Of a stretch of DNA of 64,000 nucleotides, positions 7,503-51,522 are shown one piece after another. The first letter of the stretch is position 1; every line of letters starts with the position of its first letter. The stretch lies in NCBI RefSeq assembly GCF_014651375.1, contig NZ_BMWT01000002.1, positions 563,477 through 627,476 on the forward strand, given 5' to 3'. This DNA is from Tateyamaria omphalii (GTDB lineage: Bacteria; Pseudomonadota; Alphaproteobacteria; Rhodobacterales; Rhodobacteraceae). Under the pieces are notes generated by a model. The model saw only the letters and a list, made by a program, of their open reading frames with translations. It did no database searches and was not told the DNA's origin. Position numbers and translations under genes: made by a program.

Positions 7503-8287
7503 TTGGTCTCGCGGGCTGCGGGCGCATGGGGCTGCCAATGCTGGCCGCCCTGCGCGACGGAGGCACGCGGGCCAAAGGCTTTGATGTTGTGGACAAGGGC
7601 CTGCCCCACACCACCACAAACATCATGGCCTTTGCCCCCGAAGTGGAAACCCTATTTTCCGTGGTCCGGGATGAAGAGGAAACCAACGCTCTTCTGTTTG
7701 ACACCCAGAACCTTATGGGCACCGCACCCAAGCTGCGGCGCATCTTCATTTGCTCCACTCTTTCACCGCGCTACGTTCTCGGCCTGCGCGACAGGGTGCC
7801 GGACCACATCACCCTGATCGACGCACCCATGTCCGGTGCGGTCATCGCCGCCGAAAACCGCACGCTCAGCTTCATGCTTGGCGGCACACAAGCCGACATC
7901 GACGATGCCAAGCTGCTGCTTGCCCTCATGGGTCAACACTTCCACCACATGGGCGCATATGGTGCCGGGATGCAGGCCAAGGTTTTGAACAACCTGCTCG
8001 CGGCGTCTCACACTGCAATGACCCGGCTTGTACTGGACTGGGCGGATGAGGCCGGGCTCGACACTCAGCACCTCCTGAACCTGATCGAAACATCATCGGG
8101 CCAAAACTGGCTCGCCTCAGGCTTCGACACAATCGAATTTGCCAAACACGGCTATGCTCCCGACAACTCCATCGGCATTCTGGTCAAGGACGTGGCAGCA
8201 GCCCTCGACGCCGCCCCAGACGGCGCTGACACATCGCTTCCCAAACAGGTCCAGGCCAGTGTCAGGGCTTTGCAACCTCGCCGCTGA
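7499..8287 (+). CDS. NAD(P)-dependent dehydrogenase of the 3-hydroxyisobutyrate family
   Basis: A 262-residue beta-hydroxyacid dehydrogenase-like protein. The N terminus has the Rossmann motif GCGRMG (6-11), a middle substrate-binding patch is PMSGAVIAAENRTLSFMLGG, and AKVLNN carries the lysine that is catalytic in this family. It is about 30 residues shorter than typical members (290-300). It overlaps the AAA ATPase stop by four bases, so the two are translationally coupled, an unusual pairing. The substrate cannot be read from the context. Confidence 0.85.
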   Translation: MIGLAGCGRMGLPMLAALRDGGTRAKGFDVVDKGLPHTTTNIMAFAPEVETLFSVVRDEEETNALLFDTQNLMGTAPKLRRIFICSTLSPRYVLGLRDRVPDHITLIDAPMSGAVIAAENRTLSFMLGGTQADIDDAKLLLALMGQHFHHMGAYGAGMQAKVLNNLLAASHTAMTRLVLDWADEAGLDTQHLLNLIETSSGQNWLASGFDTIEFAKHGYAPDNSIGILVKDVAAALDAAPDGADTSLPKQVQASVRALQPRR

Positions 8288-43479: not shown

Positions 43480-44616
43480 TTATCGCTTGAGGGCGCCAAC
43501 GCCGGAGAAGCGGAAGGCTTCCTGTTCCAGCGCATCGATTTCGTCCGCGCTCATTTGGTCATGGGCCACGGTGATCCGGCCAAGGAAGACGAATGGCAGC
43601 TCATCCGCACGTCCTTCCAGATCGGCCTTGATCGCCTCGGCTGTGGCTGCACCCACGTCGTCCCCCATCCGCATTGGGGTCGCGTCCAACTCACCACGAC
43701 GAATGGCGTCCAGCTCAAGGCCCGTGCCGCCCCAACCGGTTGAGAAGATGTCCTTCTCTTTGCCAACTGAAACCTGCGCTTCGACCGATCCCATCGCCAT
43801 CGCGGTGTTCGCGTTGTGGATGATCGTGGCTTCGGGGTAAGATTGCAGGATCAGCGATGTACCGGCAAAGCCGCCTTCGCGCTGATACTCACCATAGTGT
43901 TCGTACACGGTGGTCCAGCCCGCCTTTTCCTCAACACAGGCTTTGAAGTCACCTGAACGCTGGTTGTCCGTGATGCCGGGGATGCCGCGGTTCATCGCCA
44001 TGGTCACGCCTTCGCCCAGACGCCCAATCATGTAGTCACACATGGTCAGGGCACCAGCAGCCGACGAGAAGTCGAACCATGCTGCAGGCTGATGCGCGAG
44101 GTCTTTCAACGGGGTGTGAAACGCCCAGACATAGGTGGTCAGGTCGTCTTTCTCCGCCGCCAGTTTCGCGATGTTATCGCCCTGAATGGCCAGTTCAGAC
44201 GGGCCAAAGACGACATAATCATAGATGTCCTTGTCCAGAACCACCTGGTTGGCATAGGTCGTTTGCAACGAGTGTTCGATCTGGCGTGATGCAAACTCGG
44301 TTGTCTCGTACTGGATACCCAGCTGATCAAGACGCTTGGTCATCGCCAGATAGTTGCGTGCCCAGAAGTCCGATGTGTCGGACGACGGGTAGATGAGCGC
44401 AATCTGAATAGGCGCGTCCTGCGAGCCGCTGAACTTCACCGCTTCCGCGCCGACAACGGCTTGCATCGCTTCCAGCTTGCCTTCGGCATTCACTTCGTCC
44501 GGGACCCAGTAATCGCGCTCTGCGATATCCGGCAATTCCTTCAATGGCAGACCCTCGGCCAGCGCCATTCCGGTCATCGCTGTTGCCACGAGGGCTGTGG
44601 TTGCTAAAAATCTCAT
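43480..44616 (-). CDS. LuxP-like periplasmic binding protein in an ABC importer operon
   Basis: A 378-residue exported protein (signal to about residue 20, ALA-EGLPL) of the ribose-binding fold. It resembles Vibrio LuxP along its length as I recall it: IYPSSDTSDFW (75-85), GWGGTGLELDAIRRGELD (294-311), MRMGDDVGAATAEAIKADLE (315-334) and the C-terminal EIDALEQEAFRFS. Of the LuxP residues that bind autoinducer-2, Ser82, Trp85, Arg220, Thr271, Trp295 and Arg316 are present, but Gln77 becomes Asp80, Asp267 becomes Ala272, and the Thr134 and Asn159 equivalents are also changed. It is the last gene of the tandem importer operon, after its permease. Confidence 0.85.
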   Translation of the reverse strand: MRFLATTALVATAMTGMALAEGLPLKELPDIAERDYWVPDEVNAEGKLEAMQAVVGAEAVKFSGSQDAPIQIALIYPSSDTSDFWARNYLAMTKRLDQLGIQYETTEFASRQIEHSLQTTYANQVVLDKDIYDYVVFGPSELAIQGDNIAKLAAEKDDLTTYVWAFHTPLKDLAHQPAAWFDFSSAAGALTMCDYMIGRLGEGVTMAMNRGIPGITDNQRSGDFKACVEEKAGWTTVYEHYGEYQREGGFAGTSLILQSYPEATIIHNANTAMAMGSVEAQVSVGKEKDIFSTGWGGTGLELDAIRRGELDATPMRMGDDVGAATAEAIKADLEGRADELPFVFLGRITVAHDQMSADEIDALEQEAFRFSGVGALKR

Positions 44617-44701: not shown

Positions 44702-45829
44702 TTAACCGCTTGGTGCGATATCCCCGGCAAAGACGCCTCCGATAGCCAAGAGGGCTATCAGGGTGCCGATCAGTAGCGCAGAAAAGCGCACCAATTTCTG
44801 ACCTTCCGATGTTTTGAGATCGGCGAACCAGCCGCCTGCACCGTCACGGTCCTTTTTCTGGATCCAGGCGTACAGCGCGACCGAGCTGATGATCACGAAG
44901 CCTGACGCCACGGGCTGCCAGAAGAATTCAATGCGCAATGTCACAAGCGCGTTCAGCATCATGGCAAGCAGCAGCACGCCCGAGAACGATCCAATAATCG
45001 ACGCGCGACCACCAAAGAGCGATGTACCACCAACAACAACCGCCGCAATGACGTGCAGGTTGAAGAAGGGCGCCATGGTCGCCTGAATGGCGTTCTGTTT
45101 GCCGGTCAGCATCAGGCCCGCAAGGGCTGCACATGCTCCGCACAACACGTAGGCGTACACTTTATGCCGCTTCACACCGATGCCCGTCAGCTCTGCCGAT
45201 TCAGGGCTGGAGCCGATGGCGACCGTGTACCGGCCAAAGTGGGTCCGTTGCAAAATGTAGTAGCCCGCCACCATGGTCAGGATGCCGATCACCGCGGGAG
45301 TGGGTATGAAGAACGGCGTCTGACCACGGCCCATTTCTGTCAGGATGTCGGGGAAACGGGCCAGCACCAGCCCTTTGGCCAACAGAAGCGCCAAGCCCTT
45401 GTAGACCAGGTCCATCGCCAACGTGCCAATCAGATCAGGCACGTTGAAACGTGTGATGACCAAACCGTTGATGAGGCCCAGAAGCGCCCCAATGGTCAGG
45501 GCAATCGGAATGCCCACATAGATCGAAAACCCGTATTGCTTGACGAGAAACGCCATGATTATGGCTGACAACACCGCCACCGACCCGACGGACAGGTCAA
45601 TGCCGCGTTGCGTGATGACAAAGGTCATCGCCATCGCCATCGGCATATACAGGGCTGCGTCCTGCAGGATCAGCTCAAGATTGCTGATCCGGTAAAACCG
45701 ATCCGGCGACGCCACGGCCATGAACAGGAAGATGGCGATGATCATCGCCAGTGGCGCTATGACCGCCATGTAAGGCTCAAGCCGTTCGCTCAGCGGTGGC
45801 TTGTAGTCTGTGTCAACTGCGGTGTTCAT
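44702..45829 (-). CDS. Ribose-type ABC permease (second importer)
   Basis: A 375-residue RbsC-family permease with about ten hydrophobic helices. AMTFVITQRGIDLSVGSVAVLSA and VVVGGTSLFGGRASIIGSFSGV are hallmark family stretches. Its start overlaps the single-domain ATPase stop by four bases (ATGA), and the LuxP-like gene follows 85 bases after its stop, so these three form one importer. Ribose-type permeases move sugars, polyols or, for Lsr, autoinducer-2. Confidence 0.92.
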   Translation of the reverse strand: MNTAVDTDYKPPLSERLEPYMAVIAPLAMIIAIFLFMAVASPDRFYRISNLELILQDAALYMPMAMAMTFVITQRGIDLSVGSVAVLSAIIMAFLVKQYGFSIYVGIPIALTIGALLGLINGLVITRFNVPDLIGTLAMDLVYKGLALLLAKGLVLARFPDILTEMGRGQTPFFIPTPAVIGILTMVAGYYILQRTHFGRYTVAIGSSPESAELTGIGVKRHKVYAYVLCGACAALAGLMLTGKQNAIQATMAPFFNLHVIAAVVVGGTSLFGGRASIIGSFSGVLLLAMMLNALVTLRIEFFWQPVASGFVIISSVALYAWIQKKDRDGAGGWFADLKTSEGQKLVRFSALLIGTLIALLAIGGVFAGDIAPSG

Positions 45830-46587
45830 GCGGCGTCCTCCTTGGCACCAACGATCATGCCCAGCACTTCCTGGGTCGAGCTTTCAGCGGTGAGGGCCAC
45901 ACCCACACATTGGCCACGGCGCTGTACGTGAACACGGTCTGCGACCTCGAACACGTCATCCAGCGAATGGCTGATGAGGATCACGGCGAGGCCTTGCGCT
46001 TTCAGCGCTTTGATCAGCTTGAGTGTCCGTGCGGTTTCCTGGGGACCCAAGGCGGCGGTGGGTTCATCCATGACAAGCACCCGCAACCCTTCGTGGTACA
46101 CGGCGCGTGCGATGGCGACGGCCTGACGTTGACCGCCAGACAGGCTGTCGGTCGGTGCATCCAGCGATTTGAGACGCACACCCAAACGTTCCATCAGCAC
46201 CCGTTCTGTTTCCGAGCGCATCTTCTTGTTGTCGAGCACGGTGATGCCGAACACTTTCTTGGTCAGTTCGTTGCCCAGGAACATGTTGGCAGCGGGATCC
46301 AGGTGATCGGCCAGTGCAAGGGTTTGATAGACGGCATCAATGCCAGCTTTTGCAGCATCCGCGTGGTTCGAGAACTCGGTTTTCTCGCCGTCAATGTAAA
46401 TGTCACCCTCGGTCGGCTGGTAGACGCCTGTCAGAACCTTGATCAGGGTCGATTTTCCCGCACCGTTGTCGCCCACAATGGCCAGTACTTCCCCGGCATA
46501 AGCGCTCAGGTCGACATTTTGCAGGGCGGTTACGCCGCCGAAACGTTTGGTGATCCCGCGCATCTGCACGAGTGGCGTATCAGCCAT
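45826..46587 (-). CDS. Single-domain ribose-type ABC ATPase (second importer)
   Basis: A 253-residue protein with one nucleotide-binding domain: Walker A GDNGAGKST, signature LSGGQRQAV, Walker B VLVMDEPTAALG and switch His in ISHSL. In contrast with RbsA it has one domain, so it must work as a homodimer. The ATG at 46587 follows GGAGG at the right distance; the frame upstream is unlikely to be coding. It overlaps the permease by four bases. Confidence 0.93.
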   Translation of the reverse strand: MADTPLVQMRGITKRFGGVTALQNVDLSAYAGEVLAIVGDNGAGKSTLIKVLTGVYQPTEGDIYIDGEKTEFSNHADAAKAGIDAVYQTLALADHLDPAANMFLGNELTKKVFGITVLDNKKMRSETERVLMERLGVRLKSLDAPTDSLSGGQRQAVAIARAVYHEGLRVLVMDEPTAALGPQETARTLKLIKALKAQGLAVILISHSLDDVFEVADRVHVQRRGQCVGVALTAESSTQEVLGMIVGAKEDAA

Positions 46588-46693: not shown

Positions 46694-47743
46694 CTATTTG
46701 CCCCAGATCGTGGCGTAGGCGTCCCGGTAGGGAATGTCCGGATCGAACGCGTTGCTGTCGCCCAGCTTCGCCAACCCTTCGGGTGTGACCAGCGCAGGTG
46801 ATGTGACATAGCCCGAGCAGGCCTCGCCCTGGATGGCGCGGTTCAGCTCGTCCACCAGCTGCCAGCCTTGCAGGTTCAGCGGCTCGGCCACGGTGATGGC
46901 CTGGTAGCCATTGGATCGGATGCGCTGGAACGCAGCCTCGGATCCGTCACCCGCGGAACCGGCAAGTGGGCCGGCGTCAGGCGCCAGACCGGCAGCGGCC
47001 AGTGATGGGCCCATGAAGTCGAAATACAGGTCGTTGATCGCCAGCGCGTGGGTCCAGCTTTCACCGTATTTCTGCAACAGCGACGTGGTCAGCGGCCCCA
47101 TACGGGTCGATGTGTCGGCAATCGGCGTATCCACGTATTCCAGAACCTTGCCGCCCGCAGCCTCGACCGTCTCTTTCAGCCGGTCCGCTTTGTCGATGGC
47201 GATCTGGTACGTGCTGTCGGTGAAGATCACCACGCCGATCTCTTCGCCTTGCGCCTTGGCATCGTCGATGGCCCATTCAGCGGCCACTTCGGACACCGTC
47301 ATGGCATCGGTGGACACGTTCGCGAAAATACCGCCGGGTGCATCACAGCCGATGACAGGGCCGGAGTGCCAGGCAACCATCGGTACGCCTGCGTCGACAA
47401 CGCCTTCCAGTGCCGCTTGTTGTTCCACGGCGTCAAAGCCGTTGATGATGATACCGTCCGCCTTCAATGCCAGCGCCTGACCAATCGCCGCTGTCCGACC
47501 CTGAATGGAGCCTGCGCCGTCCAGCACGCGGACTTCCCAGCCGATCTTGGCCGCGGCTTCCTCGACACCCGTGGTGACACCCAGGATTCCGCCATTTTTC
47601 AGATCGCCCGCGACGACGACAATGGATTTTCCGTCAGCCGCGGCAGGCCCGGTTGTCGGTCCGTCCCATTCCGCCGCCAAGGCTGGCACGGCGGTCATCA
47701 ATGTCGTGGCCAGCAGTCCGGCCATGAATGTACGTTTTTGCAT
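46694..47743 (-). CDS. Ribose-type ABC substrate-binding protein (first importer)
   Basis: A 349-residue periplasmic protein with signal peptide MQKRTFMAGLLATTLMTAVP (cleavage about ALA-AEWDG). It has the two-lobed periplasmic-binding-protein type 1 fold: IVVVAGDLKNGGILGVTTGVEEAAAKIGWEV and IGQALALKADGIIINGF in lobe I, and the hinge region near AEPLNLQGWQLVDELNRAI. Unlike the LuxP-like partner it has no strong match to a specific ligand family. It precedes the second importer's ATPase by 106 bases. Confidence 0.9.
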   Translation of the reverse strand: MQKRTFMAGLLATTLMTAVPALAAEWDGPTTGPAAADGKSIVVVAGDLKNGGILGVTTGVEEAAAKIGWEVRVLDGAGSIQGRTAAIGQALALKADGIIINGFDAVEQQAALEGVVDAGVPMVAWHSGPVIGCDAPGGIFANVSTDAMTVSEVAAEWAIDDAKAQGEEIGVVIFTDSTYQIAIDKADRLKETVEAAGGKVLEYVDTPIADTSTRMGPLTTSLLQKYGESWTHALAINDLYFDFMGPSLAAAGLAPDAGPLAGSAGDGSEAAFQRIRSNGYQAITVAEPLNLQGWQLVDELNRAIQGEACSGYVTSPALVTPEGLAKLGDSNAFDPDIPYRDAYATIWGK

Positions 47744-47827: not shown

Positions 47828-48856
47828 TCAGCGCTTGTCTGCACCTTTTTTGCGCTGCGCGTATCCTGCGATGCCAATGGCAACCAGCAGGGTTACTCCG
47901 TTAAAGAGCGGCTCGACCCAGAAGGAGCCGCCGAATTGTTGAATGCCTGAAATGCCCACAGCCAGGATGACGACACCGACAACAGTGCCCCAGACATTGA
48001 CCCGTCCGGGTTTGATGGTCGTTGAGCCCAGGAAGGCACCGACAAGCGCAGGCAGCAGGAATTCAAGCCCCACCGACGCCTGCCCGATCCGCAGCTTTGC
48101 CGCGAGCAGCACACCAGCAAGCGCAGTCATTGTGCCCGAGGCGACAAACGCGCCGATCACATATTTCCGGGTAGGAATACCGTTCAGTTGCGCGGCTCTT
48201 TGGTTCGCGCCAATGGCATAGAGGTATCGTCCGACGGGCGTGTATTCGAGAACGATCCACATCACGACAGTAATGACGACCAAATAGTAAGCCGTGATGG
48301 GAAGGCCGAACACAAAGGTGGTGTTCAGGGCATAGAATCCATCAGGCAACAGCCCCACCATTTGCCGCCCGCCAGTATGCCATAGCGCCAGCGCGTAAAG
48401 CACAGTCCCGGTGCCAAGCGTTGCGATAAAGCTGTCGATCTTGGCAACTTCGACCAACAGCCCGTTGAGAAATCCTGTCACGGCGCCAAGCAACAGTACA
48501 ATCGCCACCGCAATGGGCCACGGAAGACCCAGCATCGTTTGCAAGCTGATGGCGAGGATGTGCCACAGCACGATCCCGTACCCAACGGTCAGGTCGATCC
48601 GCCCCGCCGCCATCGGGATCATCGCCCCAAGCGACAACAGCGCGATGATCGCCTTGTCCGAGATGATGGACCGTAAGTTCAGCATCGTCGGGAATGTGTT
48701 GGGCAACAGAACCGAGAACAGGCCAATCAGGAACACGGTCAGAATGACCAGACCGTAGACCGGCAGGAACCGCATCAGACGCTTGCCCATGGGCAGTCCT
48801 TTGAGTTCGGCCTTGGTCGGTTCGAGTGCGCTGGATTCAAGCGACTGCATTCGCAC
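47828..48856 (-). CDS. Ribose-type ABC permease (first importer)
   Basis: A 342-residue RbsC-family permease with about ten membrane helices (ALLSLGAMIPMAAGRIDLTVGYG and FLGSTTIKPGRVNVWGTVVGVVIL are typical). The coding region begins inside the last bases of the ATPase gene (20-base overlap with start 48856, or 14 with the Met at 48850). The binding protein gene follows 84 bases downstream. Together with the two-domain ATPase it makes a complete importer. Confidence 0.92.
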   Translation of the reverse strand: MRMQSLESSALEPTKAELKGLPMGKRLMRFLPVYGLVILTVFLIGLFSVLLPNTFPTMLNLRSIISDKAIIALLSLGAMIPMAAGRIDLTVGYGIVLWHILAISLQTMLGLPWPIAVAIVLLLGAVTGFLNGLLVEVAKIDSFIATLGTGTVLYALALWHTGGRQMVGLLPDGFYALNTTFVFGLPITAYYLVVITVVMWIVLEYTPVGRYLYAIGANQRAAQLNGIPTRKYVIGAFVASGTMTALAGVLLAAKLRIGQASVGLEFLLPALVGAFLGSTTIKPGRVNVWGTVVGVVILAVGISGIQQFGGSFWVEPLFNGVTLLVAIGIAGYAQRKKGADKR

Positions 48857-50363
48857 CGCTCCCTTCTGTCTTGATATTCCCGGCCGAGGCCGACTGGATC
48901 AGGTTTTCAGTTGTCAGCCGCGTGCCGCTGAGTTCATCGACAATCGCCCCTTGGCTGAAGACAATGGCCCGGTGGCAAATCGTGGCGATCTCTTCGAAAT
49001 CGGTGGACATGATCAGGATCGCAACACCGTCCCCAAGGGCGCGGTTGAGCAGGGCGTAAATCTCGGACTTGGCCCCGACATCCACACCCGCTGTCGGGTC
49101 TTCGCAGATCAGAAGCTTGCGCTTGGTGGCGAGCCAGCGGCCAATGACGACCTTCTGTTGGTTGCCGCCCGACAGCGCCTCAATCGCGAGGGTCGGGTCA
49201 TTGGGCGACAGGCCCAACTCGGCCCCGATGATAGCGGCCTGTTCGGCTTCGAGCCGTGGTGACAGCATGCTCAGCAGTTTCCGGCCAATGCCGTCGGGGT
49301 TGAGAAAGGTATTTTCCCGGATCGACAGGCTCATTGCTACGGATTCTTCGGTCCGATCCTTGGCGACCAGGCCAACACCGGAATGAAGCGCCTTCTGCGG
49401 GTTTGACAGATCGGGCTGAACCCCGCCCAGCGTCACCTCTCCGTCGAAGGGCAGCAACCCAAAGAGGGCACGCGAGATTGCCTCGTGCCCTGCCCCGCGC
49501 AAGCCCACAAGACCCAAAACCTCGTTCTTCTGCAGATCGAAATCCAGTTTCTGCATCCCCGCCACTTCGAAGTTGCGCAAGGATAGGACCGCGTCGCCGA
49601 TCGCATCCGTCGCCTTGACCGTCTCGCGGGTTTTGCGACCCACGATTTTTTGCACCAGTTCTTCGGGCGTTGTGTGGTCGATGCTGCGCACGCCCACCAT
49701 CGCGCCATCGCGGAGCACGGCCACGCGGTCCGCGATCTGGAAAATCTCGTCCAGACGGTGGGACACATAGATCATCCCGACGCCCTTTTCGCGCAATGGC
49801 CGGATGGCCGCGAACAGGCGTTCCACTTCATCGGCGGGAAGCGATGCCGTGGGTTCGTCCAAAACCAGAAACTCGCTGTCCACGGCTAGCGCACGGGCAA
49901 TCGCCACCAGTGATTTTTCGGTCCGTGTCAGGTCTTCGACGCGCGCGGTTGGGTCAAATTCGGCATCCACCTTGCGGAGTGCTTCCACCGCGAAGTGTTC
50001 GACATCCTTCCAGCGGATCAGCCCGTTCTTCTTCGAAAAGCCGAGCGCGAGGCCAATATTTTCCGCCACCGTCATCCATTCGATCAGGCCCAGGTCCTGG
50101 TGGATGAAGGCCACCTTCTGTCGCTCGCCAAACCCTGCCGGCTTGTGTTGGTACGGTTCGCCATCGATCAGCACGCGGCCAGCGTCTGCCGTATGGATGC
50201 CACCAAGTACTTTGATCAGGGTCGACTTGCCTGCGCCGTTCTCACCCAGAAGGGCGACAATCTCGCCACGGCCCACGGTCAACGAAACATCCTTGAGCGC
50301 ATAGGTGCCGCCAAAATGTTTGTCGATGCTGTCGAAAAACAAACCTGTCTGCAGGTCTGGCAT
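48837..50363 (-). CDS. Two-domain RbsA-like ABC ATPase (first importer)
   Basis: A 508-residue protein with two nucleotide-binding domains, as in RbsA. Domain 1 has a good Walker A (GENGAGKST) and Walker B (FLVLDEPTASLP), but the signature is LTRTEKSLVAIARAL in place of LSGGQ. Domain 2 has a weak P-loop (GLRGAGHEAIS), a good signature (LSGGNQQKVVIG) and an inverted Walker B end, CEDPTAGVD in place of DEPT. The composite sites may therefore be unequal. It is the first gene after the twin-operator promoter. Confidence 0.94.
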   Translation of the reverse strand: MPDLQTGLFFDSIDKHFGGTYALKDVSLTVGRGEIVALLGENGAGKSTLIKVLGGIHTADAGRVLIDGEPYQHKPAGFGERQKVAFIHQDLGLIEWMTVAENIGLALGFSKKNGLIRWKDVEHFAVEALRKVDAEFDPTARVEDLTRTEKSLVAIARALAVDSEFLVLDEPTASLPADEVERLFAAIRPLREKGVGMIYVSHRLDEIFQIADRVAVLRDGAMVGVRSIDHTTPEELVQKIVGRKTRETVKATDAIGDAVLSLRNFEVAGMQKLDFDLQKNEVLGLVGLRGAGHEAISRALFGLLPFDGEVTLGGVQPDLSNPQKALHSGVGLVAKDRTEESVAMSLSIRENTFLNPDGIGRKLLSMLSPRLEAEQAAIIGAELGLSPNDPTLAIEALSGGNQQKVVIGRWLATKRKLLICEDPTAGVDVGAKSEIYALLNRALGDGVAILIMSTDFEEIATICHRAIVFSQGAIVDELSGTRLTTENLIQSASAGNIKTEGSGANAVA

Positions 50364-50404: not shown

Positions 50405-50416
50405 GTTACCCGTAAC
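50405..50416. promoter_or_regulatory. GntR-type operator, site 1
   Basis: GTTACCCGTAAC, a palindrome of 5-base half-sites around CC, upstream of the ABC array. It equals the core of the E. coli GntR/IdnR operator as I recall it. The second copy is 57 bases away. Confidence 0.75.
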
Positions 50417-50461
50417 ATTCCGCTAGCATCAGGTCAGAGCACAGGCTCTGTCAAGGCTTAA

Positions 50462-50473
50462 GTTACCCGTAAC
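50462..50473. promoter_or_regulatory. GntR-type operator, site 2
   Basis: Exact second copy of GTTACCCGTAAC, 18 bases before the GTG of the regulator gene. Both copies fall between the divergent ABC array and regulator genes, so the regulator probably controls both directions by looping or blocking. Confidence 0.75.
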
Positions 50474-50490: not shown

Positions 50491-51522
50491 GTGGAAAAAA
50501 GCAGTAAGAACAACAAAGTAAGCCTATCCGAGGTTGCTCGGGCCGCAGGCGTGTCGAAAATGACGGCCAGCCGGGTTGTGCGTGGTGAGGGCGGGTATTC
50601 GGAAAAAACCCGCGTCAAGGTGATGGAGCAGGTGGACGTCCTTGGCTACCTACCGAATCGTTTGGCGACCGTGTTTGCAGGCGATCAGAACTCGACCTTC
50701 ATCGGTGTATCGATCCCGGATCTGGGAAACGAGGTTTTTGCCCAGGTGCTCGAAGGGATCGACCGCAAGCTGGGAACGTTTGGATACCAATCCGTTCTGG
50801 GCCTCACACAACACACCCAACAAGAAGAAGAAAACTGGATCAGGACCGTGCTGTCGTGGCAACCAGCGGGCCTCATTCTAACCGGCCGCTACCATTCTCC
50901 CCGCGCCATGGACATGCTGCGGAACGCCGGTATTCCAGTGGTTGAGATTTGGGATTTGAACTCCAGCCCCCTCGACATGAGCGTGGGCATCAATCACTTC
51001 GACAGCGGGTTTGATATGGGGCGGTATCTGACATCGCTTGGCTATCAGAACATCGGCTATGTCGGAACATCGCATGACACGGCAAACGCAGCTACAGAGC
51101 GGCTTAGCGGCTTCTGCAAGGCGGTCGAGGGTGCGGGCGGCGCGGTCGTAAAGCAGCTTTGCCTGCATGACACCGCCACGTACTACCCGGGCTTTTACGG
51201 AACTGAGCAGTTGCTGGCGGCTGCCCGCGATATCGAGTGCATCTTTTATCAGAACGACGCGATGGCCTTTGGCGGTTTGCAGTATTGCGCGGCCAAGGGG
51301 CTGTCCGTGCCGGATGACATTGGTATCGCCGGATGGGGTGACCTACCGATTGCATCGGTGATGAACCGGCGCCTCACCTCGTGCCATGTCTCACATCTGA
51401 AGCTTGGCCAGAAAGCGGCCGAAATGATGATGGGACGTTTGACCGACGAGCCCGTACCGACCTGCACCGATATCGGCTTTCGCCTGATCCCCGGGTCGAC
51501 GGTTCGCAACAGCGGGGTGTAG
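50491..51522 (+). CDS. LacI-family regulator, GntR-like
   Basis: A 343-residue repressor. The helix-turn-helix and hinge helix occupy about 10-60 (VSLSEVARAAGVSKMTASRVV), then a periplasmic-binding-like sensor domain, ending with ASVMNRRLTSCHVSHLKLG and FRLIPGSTVR, similar to E. coli GntR (gluconate repressor). The start is GTG at 50491; the ATG at 50479 would hit a stop at once. It is divergent from the tandem ABC importer array and is almost certainly its regulator. The inducer is not known; gluconate-like sugars or a phosphorylated sugar are possible. Confidence 0.93.
   Translation: MEKSSKNNKVSLSEVARAAGVSKMTASRVVRGEGGYSEKTRVKVMEQVDVLGYLPNRLATVFAGDQNSTFIGVSIPDLGNEVFAQVLEGIDRKLGTFGYQSVLGLTQHTQQEEENWIRTVLSWQPAGLILTGRYHSPRAMDMLRNAGIPVVEIWDLNSSPLDMSVGINHFDSGFDMGRYLTSLGYQNIGYVGTSHDTANAATERLSGFCKAVEGAGGAVVKQLCLHDTATYYPGFYGTEQLLAAARDIECIFYQNDAMAFGGLQYCAAKGLSVPDDIGIAGWGDLPIASVMNRRLTSCHVSHLKLGQKAAEMMMGRLTDEPVPTCTDIGFRLIPGSTVRNSGV

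Follow-up and report, generated by a model that had tools for sequence, protein, structure and literature searches.

Within a 64,000-nucleotide stretch of the Tateyamaria omphalii genome (here called the window), six genes follow one another in the order two-domain ATPase, permease, second substrate-binding protein (SBPb), single-domain ATPase (NBD1), permease (TMD2), and LuxP-like protein. All six lie on the minus strand. A LacI-family regulator gene diverges from them, and two copies of GTTACCCGTAAC flank the likely promoter of the importer genes (Table 1). The gene encoding the LuxP-like protein is an open reading frame of 378 codons that begins with ATG, has GGGAGG ahead of its start, and lies 85 bp behind the TMD2 gene; the plus strand of the same interval is interrupted by stops.

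Table 1. Features of the LuxP-like importer locus, in window coordinates.
Feature	Position	Strand	Basis or remark
LuxP-like periplasmic substrate-binding protein, 378 aa	43480..44616	-	last gene of the operon; Peripla_BP_4 above cut-off
CUT2-type permease TMD2, partner of the LuxP-like protein	44702..45829	-	BPD_transp_2, 121 bits
Single-domain ABC ATPase NBD1	45826..46587	-	ABC_tran
SBPb, second substrate-binding protein (companion importer)	46694..47743	-	Peripla_BP_4, 72.8 bits
CUT2-type permease TMD1 (companion importer)	47828..48856	-	BPD_transp_2, 99 bits
Two-domain sugar ABC ATPase, AraG/RbsA-like (companion importer)	48837..50363	-	two ABC_tran stretches
Operator 1, GTTACCCGTAAC	50405..50416	.	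downstream of the importer promoter
Likely -35 box TTGACA, importer promoter	50449..50454	-	between the two operators; read by eye
Operator 2, GTTACCCGTAAC	50462..50473	.	upstream of the importer promoter
Divergent LacI-family regulator, nearest GntR/IdnR (gluconate/idonate) repressors	50491..51522	+	NCBIfam profiles

The operon combines a Peripla_BP_4 protein, a BPD_transp_2 permease, and an ABC ATPase, the composition of a CUT2 importer. Thus, the claim of the initial annotation that the binding protein is encoded inside an ABC importer operon is borne out, and an import function for the LuxP-like operon is near certain. NBD1 aligns to the N-terminal half alone of AlsA/YtfR/RbsA-type ATPases. 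The list of open reading frames places its start at 46809; an ATG preceded by GGAGG lies at 46587. The two-domain ATPase of the companion importer scores 389 bits against AraG, under the cut-off of 689. SBPb carries a conserved DGPT..GP stretch behind its signal peptide. No close relative of it has a solved structure (at best 24 bits in a profile search), and the top fold match, 18% identical and a binder of galactofuranose, supplies no specific ligand clue.

The two best families for the divergent regulator are GntR (246 bits, cut-off 400) and IdnR (216 bits, cut-off 500), both under cut-off, and its identity to Escherichia coli IdnR is 30%. GTTACCCGTAAC did not occur once in 100 shuffles of the window, and the two operators are the only GTTACSSGTAAC sites genome-wide. 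We take these operators to resemble the E. coli GntR/IdnR box.

With respect to sequence, LuxP is the top match of the binding protein among all PDB chains (phmmer, 128 bits, E 4e-36, residues 49-371), and E. coli RbsB comes next at 35 bits. A profile built from eight relatives gives 198 bits for LuxP versus 64 bits for RbsB, and the RbsB equivalog model scores 34.8 bits on the window protein against a cut-off of 337. LuxP is likewise the best PDB match by fold, and the LuxP-like fold is present including its N-terminal extension; LsrB is missing among the 50 PDB fold matches listed, an absence that carries no weight. The initial annotation had noted a whole-length match to Vibrio LuxP. That match is real and nearly whole-length, and every motif it named is present: GWGG (294-297), ELDAIRRGELD, MRMGDD, and the C-terminal EIDALEQEAFRFS.

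Similarity to LuxP does not make the window protein a LuxP. In a tree of 44 rows, kinase-linked LuxP (9 rows, support 100/99), a group whose genes are linked to lsr homologs (8 rows, 100/99), and the window group (22 rows, 99/99 here and 98-99 over two tree analyses) form three clades joined at 97/96, and the window protein falls outside the kinase-linked LuxP clade, which is separate from its own. The best tree tentatively pairs the lsr-linked and LuxP clades at 73/38; the alternatives have p-AU values of 0.354 and 0.107. The branches of RbsB, TorT, LsrB, and SBPb are long to very long; LsrB, whose branch is very long, falls far from the 40 rows of the LuxP-like group. Because such branches say only that a protein is far, we rely on the bit scores instead. 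By sequence, then, the protein is a member of one of three well-supported LuxP-like clades, and the comparison with LuxP, LsrB, RbsB, and TorT that the initial annotation called for places its clade next to LuxP and the others far away. The annotation had also suggested a third arrangement in which a LuxP-type receptor feeds a transporter. The ABC operon is real, yet more than one further arrangement exists: LuxP-type proteins are also found with GGDEF-EAL proteins in Vibrio and with LsrK, LsrG, and LsrR homologs in other Rhodobacteraceae.

The binding pocket separates the clades. Ten LuxP pocket positions had been compared in the initial annotation, and the alignment agrees with it at each. 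Six are kept, with S82, W85, R220, T271, W295, and R316 of the window protein corresponding to LuxP S79, W82, R215, T266, W289, and R310. Four are changed (LuxP to window): Q77 to D80, T134 to P139, N159 to A165, and D267 to A272. In a smaller alignment the partner of T134 is G138, likewise a change. Seven of the ten positions we take to be contacts of autoinducer-2 (AI-2). For the other three, Asn159, Arg215, and Arg310, hydrogen bonds to AI-2 are stated in the accessible text of one report (PMC6452917), and the window protein lacks the full trio: both arginines are kept, and Asn159 is replaced by Ala. The same two LuxP arginines that grip the borate ester are proposed to grip sulfone inhibitors, according to the accessible part of another (PMC3794749).

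Our comparison used an alignment of 362 rows, in which rows P0001-P0240 may hold the same cluster under two identifiers; the 240 window-clade database rows were the nearest to the window and Vibrio queries. LuxP position 77 is Gln in 12 of 13 LuxP-clade rows (the other has a gap), Glu in 69/69 lsr-linked rows, and Asp in 240/240 window-clade rows. Position 159 is Asn in 13/13 LuxP-clade and 69/69 lsr-linked rows and Ala in all 240 window-clade database rows. Position 267 is Asp in 13/13 LuxP-clade rows, Ala in 66/69 lsr-linked rows, and Ala in 239/240 window-clade rows. In window numbering, D80, A165, R220, and R316 are fixed in 240/240 database rows. Across all groups, Ser79, Trp82, Arg215, Thr266, Trp289, and Arg310 are almost invariant; the chief departure is Phe at Trp82 in 8/69 lsr-linked rows. 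Position 159 varies in deep rows of the window clade: L175, L176, and P0310 have Asn, L029 has Gly (and additionally Phe in place of Trp82), and L189 has Ser. Asp at 77 and the two arginines are retained in each of these five rows. These rows rule out Ala159 as a mark of the whole window clade. The clade is thus recognized by Asp77, and its main branch, to which the window protein belongs, by the loss of Asn159. This variation leaves the odds on the ligand unchanged because the window protein itself has Ala. L175 and L176 (genomes G668 and G847) form a deep branch at 53% identity, with their own permease and ATPase, an SDR gene, and Asn159 kept; this branch is possibly an intermediate between clades. 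Overall, four changes in ten support the proposal of the initial annotation that the ligand is related to, but different from, that of LuxP.

The clades also differ in their partners. All seven neighbors scanned in the LuxP clade (L034, L035, L038, L041, L043, L045, and L046) are histidine kinases; the LuxQ-periplasm domain is found in six of the seven at E <= 0.001, with L038 below the gathering score and L045 giving no match. One LuxP-clade gene (L019/L040, genome G611) carries an in-frame stop. The window protein, for its part, adjoins ABC permease and ATPase genes and has no LuxQ-type sensor kinase beside it. Pocket, clade, and partner together rule out a strict LuxP identity. Both protein types can coexist: each of the genomes G344, G372, and G518 encodes two LuxP-side proteins, one a LuxP at about 30% that adjoins a kinase-sized open reading frame (LuxQ by Pfam at L035, from G344), the other a window-type protein at 55-60%, which in 3/3 cases lies beside an SBPb homolog (~41%) and a GGDEF-EAL protein. 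Vibrio sp. THAF191d carries these three genes as well. Four Vibrio loci (L031, L032, L033, and L142) hold the same two binding proteins as the window operon together with a c-di-GMP-type output; no NBD1 or TMD2 homolog was called within those stretches.

The lsr-linked clade offers a different partnership. Its exemplar in Roseicitreum antarcticum (WP_092888894; locus L143:6268-16164) is 39-40% identical to the window protein and, like it, is encoded with an ABC importer that has one permease and one single-domain ATPase; a class II aldolase gene is also present. This clade differs from that of the window in sitting beside LsrK, LsrG, LsrR, and RbsD homologs and in having Asn159 kept and Glu at position 77. 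R. antarcticum LsrK scores 784 bits, above the cut-off of 528; LsrG (110, cut-off 135), LsrR (292, cut-off 486), and the RbsD-like protein (87, cut-off 93) fall below theirs. The same gene set is present in 4/4 lsr-linked loci (L143, L172, L173, and L174); in L174, the frame of the binding protein was missed by the gene caller and was placed by its genome search match. Seventy protein clusters match, the last of which falls in the window clade in the tree, and the named matches come from Rhodobacteraceae/Paracoccaceae, Rhodospirillales, Anaerolineales, and Georgenia. Among 385 alphaproteobacterial genomes searched at E <= 1e-40, nine have matches, none above 39% identity, and thus no further lsr-linked member was found there.

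Of the genes for making and processing AI-2, LuxS has no match in the window genome (5/14 control genomes match) or in any of 25 alphaproteobacterial genomes, and among 29 genomes searched it is present in the four Vibrio-like ones. LsrK exceeds its cut-off in 4/29 genomes, exactly those with an lsr-linked protein (784-806 bits); the best score in the window genome is 158.7 bits. The window organism thus has neither LuxS nor an LsrK passing the cut-off, although a diverged kinase is possible. By gene content and pocket, the lsr-linked clade is a better candidate than the window clade for a LuxP-type AI-2 importer. Published accounts, in their accessible text, place LuxPQ in Vibrionales, report moderate LuxP homologs from Oceanospirillales and from two deltaproteobacteria, and assign LsrB to Rhodobacter (Rezzonico and Duffy, PMC2561040); mention 28 LuxP candidates, two of them alphaproteobacterial (PMC11069264); or speak of LuxP in Vibrio only (PMC7584622). 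Within the accessible literature, which mostly excludes subscription journals, no specific LuxP-type ABC importer or lsr-linked arrangement is described.

To place the window operon among its relatives, we searched a protein database, in which the 7,999 candidates sharing the most words were scored and 1,106 proteins matched at E <= 0.001, and scanned one genome per species for encoding loci. The best 80 of 191 such loci (L047-L126) were used as the relatives; they span Tateyamaria, Roseobacter, Ruegeria, Shimia, Roseibium, Hoeflea, Kiloniellaceae, and others. By our own gene caller, and with some loci ending at contig ends, the NBD1-TMD2-LuxP-like trio is contiguous in 68/80, and the six-gene order recurs in 43/80, or 56/80 when one missed or inserted gene is allowed. 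The operators are conserved as well. Among 60 intergenic regions between the regulator (LacIa) and ATPase genes (57 of the 80 loci plus L027, L028, and the window), at least one site is present in 57 and at least two in 47. Across 84 loci, 98 of 165 pattern matches are concentrated in these intergenic regions, which make up 6,122 of 1,627,413 bp. Orthologous operons, each with two operators, lie on the megaplasmid of Ruegeria pomeroyi DSS-3 (84%; binding protein SPO_RS21100) and on a plasmid of Phaeobacter inhibens (80%). At large, the window clade is uncommon: in a class-wide sample, 8/289 genomes match at E <= 1e-20, and a window-type protein is present only in the window's own genome and in G252. 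Within the window's family, at least 24/394 genomes carry a member of the group at E <= 1e-25 with the Roseicitreum protein as query, a lower bound since at most four candidates per genome were scored. From gene maps, tree rows, and match identity, 21 of these genomes read as window-clade, among them G725, which has both types, and three as lsr-linked only.

The neighborhoods of the relatives point to gluconate/idonate-type sugar acids. Recurrent beside the operon are genes for a gluconokinase (TIGR01313, 186.7 bits, above the cut-off of 113.75), a 6-phosphogluconate dehydrogenase (601 bits, above 413), a gluconate 5-dehydrogenase-like SDR (295 bits, below 408), an L-idonate 5-dehydrogenase-like (IdnD-like) enzyme (361 bits, below 469), a beta-hydroxyacid dehydrogenase, a 2-hydroxyacid dehydrogenase, and an SMP-30/gluconolactonase protein, together with a second LacI regulator and a CUT1 importer. 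At least one of the seven gluconate/idonate genes lies within the fetched stretch at 53/80 loci and at least two at 37/80; for full-length loci, the counts are 46/65 and 33/65. Per gene, the 80 loci hold 43 SMP-30/gluconolactonase, 35 beta-hydroxyacid dehydrogenase, 23 gluconokinase, 19 gluconate 5-dehydrogenase-like, 8 2-hydroxyacid dehydrogenase, 8 IdnD-like, and 7 6-phosphogluconate dehydrogenase matches. None of the seven was found at 13 kinase-linked LuxP-clade, 4 lsr-linked, or 3 Vibrio control loci, zeros that are partly expected because the cluster representatives used as queries were drawn from the relatives' loci. For that reason, we repeated the count with independent E. coli proteins, which found IdnK at 22/80, IdnO at 22/80, and IdnD at 10/80 loci. 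Queries with E. coli RbsK, RbsD, LsrF, and LsrG matched 0/80, and homologs of LsrK and LsrG were likewise found at 0/80.

None of the seven genes lies nearby at 19/65 full-length relatives' loci, at the closest relative (L047), or in the window itself, where the sole trace is a weak 29% match to the beta-hydroxyacid dehydrogenase at 7817-8242. The IdnD, IdnO, and IdnK homologs that are linked to the transporter in part of the 80 loci are on another contig (C7) in the window genome. There, IdnD-, 2-hydroxyacid dehydrogenase-, IdnO-, IdnK-, and beta-hydroxyacid dehydrogenase-like genes accompany a second LacI gene, an operator-like GTTATCGATAAC lies between divergent halves, and 6-phosphogluconate dehydrogenase, SMP-30/gluconolactonase, and CUT1 genes are near. 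Other associations occur. The transporter of L029 and L030, a more distant member of the window clade, adjoins genes for Ldh_2, an HpcH/HpaI aldolase, and an alpha/beta hydrolase in place of gluconate genes. A 3-oxo-tetronate kinase is among the genes near L121 and L124 (Kiloniellaceae) and passes its cut-off in L121.

We propose that the window operon probably imports a gluconate/idonate-type sugar acid, lactone, or keto-acid, a proposal built on pocket, regulator, and gene neighborhood. In this mechanism, the LuxP-like protein would serve a CUT2 ABC importer (NBD1-TMD2-LuxP-like) as its periplasmic receptor and would not be a signaling receptor; the pocket of its clade is retuned relative to that of LuxP. 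Arg220 and Arg316, whose LuxP counterparts hold the anionic borate ester, would most likely hold a carboxylate, and an anion-gripping pair in changed surroundings fits one. If so, the ligand is most likely a sugar acid, a lactone, or a cyclic (furanose) keto form. The imported substrate would then pass through oxidation and reduction by the idonate 5-dehydrogenase-, gluconate 5-dehydrogenase-, and 2-hydroxyacid dehydrogenase-like enzymes to gluconokinase. A GntR/IdnR-like repressor acting on the two promoter-flanking operators would presumably keep the operon off when substrate is lacking. Such a system would resemble that of E. coli, whose IdnD, IdnO, and IdnK have counterparts at 44-51% identity in part of the relatives' loci and in the window genome, and would differ from it in using ABC importers for uptake, not the IdnT permease. 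The initial annotation had imagined a related furanosyl or sugar molecule; the pocket supports a different ligand, and the neighborhoods refine the suggestion to sugar acids of the gluconate/idonate type. Counting against a sugar acid are the loci, the window among them, with none of the seven genes close by; the variation of the pocket at position 159 over the whole clade; a published ribose label for the R. pomeroyi operon, taken up below; the SBPb and CUT1 importers, which share the neighborhood and could serve the gluconate genes instead; the IdnD-like and gluconate 5-dehydrogenase matches and the regulator, which fall below their equivalog cut-offs; and the relatives near other organic-acid or sugar-acid genes (L029/L030, L121/L124).

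The main rival is an importer of ribose or another neutral pentose or hexose, which we consider unlikely. One study, in its accessible text, assigns R. pomeroyi SPOA0253, 0254, and 0256-0258 to ribose and treats them as an experimentally verified system, citing a transcriptome paper (PMC9038784, Table 2); in diatom co-culture, noon levels of the ribose-labeled system exceeded those at night 21- to 56-fold (PMC9038784). Judging by gene order, SPOA0253-0258 would be the orthologous operon L140. The label may derive from the gene names rbsA and rbsC. In the accessible parts of two other R. pomeroyi papers (PMC9870897, PMC10041152), none of the SPOA02 tags shown is SPOA0253-0258. The window system shares the CUT2 architecture of RbsABC, and RbsB is the next best family of its binding protein; against this stand the RbsB score far under cut-off and the missing RbsK and RbsD homologs at the relatives' loci. 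The regulator, too, looks GntR/IdnR-like, as the operators appear to. A small but appreciable chance belongs to some other sugar-like anion or polyol, such as a sugar-borate ester, a hexonolactone, or a branched sugar acid, with the gluconate genes serving the companion importers. The SBPb set is present in 63/80 loci and the CUT1 set in 29/80, an L-rhamnonate dehydratase-like gene in 11/80, and some relatives also have PdxA- and aldolase-like genes, or Ldh_2 with the HpcH/HpaI aldolase. However, 14/84 loci have the NBD1 gene with neither an SBPb nor a CUT1 set found, and gluconate-type genes occur in eight of those 14, six of the seven in five (L091, L098, L101, L178, and L191).

Import of AI-2 or a close furanosyl borate, with a LuxP-type protein recruited to an Lsr-like role, was rejected as the main reading and strikes us as quite unlikely. 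In its favor, LuxP is the nearest solved relative, and both borate arginines are among the six kept positions; LuxP also accepts sugar-borates, by the titles of solved complexes (4yr7, 4yp9), and borate is present in seawater. One survey, in its accessible text, reports AI-2 binding by three proteins called LuxP and says that LuxP and LsrB bind AI-2 for import (PMC12268683), and the deepest window-clade branch retains Asn159. The Lsr system (LsrACDB, LsrK, LsrFG) is itself a CUT2-type ABC importer with a periplasmic binding protein, but LsrB is distant, the regulator is LacI-family and nearest GntR/IdnR, not LsrR, and LuxS, a passing LsrK, neighboring LsrK, LsrF, and LsrG genes, and Asn159 in the window's branch are all missing from the sets searched above. 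Finally, a signaling receptor whose output partner is encoded elsewhere seems highly improbable. LuxP relatives do signal via kinases, and Vibrio members of the same clade adjoin a GGDEF-EAL protein; the window protein, however, follows its own ATPase and permease in a trio that relatives conserve. LuxQ-periplasm (PF09308) has no match genome-wide here, a search that matched in no control genome either, so absence is not demonstrated.

The preferred reading, sugar-acid import, combines ordinary machinery with an unusual receptor: the transporter is a CUT2 importer, and its binding protein represents a conserved clade next to LuxP, known in solved form as the Vibrio AI-2 receptor (1jx6, 1zhh), that is probably for sugar acids. 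More tentatively, and with the balance against it, three branches may share one anion-gripping arginine pair: LuxP, for borated AI-2 and a kinase; the lsr-linked branch, LuxP-type and not LsrB, for AI-2 import to LsrK without LuxS; and the window's branch, with sugar acids as its cargo among Roseobacters and GGDEF-EAL proteins as its partners in Vibrio. If true, a sugar-acid importer and the AI-2 receptor go back to a common origin, and AI-2 import through a LuxP-type system has so far been overlooked. The lsr-linked clade makes such an uptake route directly testable.

These distinctions bear on how such proteins are named. Many are called "autoinducer 2-binding protein LuxP" in databases (jgi and some ncbi names), and a recent survey, in its accessible text, picked its LuxP receptors by search term (PMC12268683). 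LuxP position 77 provides a simple sorting test, with Gln for LuxP, Glu for the lsr-linked clade, and Asp for the window clade; position 159 is helpful, though variable in deep branches of the window clade. Should sugar acids be the cargo of the window clade, many marine "AI-2 receptors" would in fact import nutrients, and maps would overstate how widely AI-2 is listened for in the ocean.
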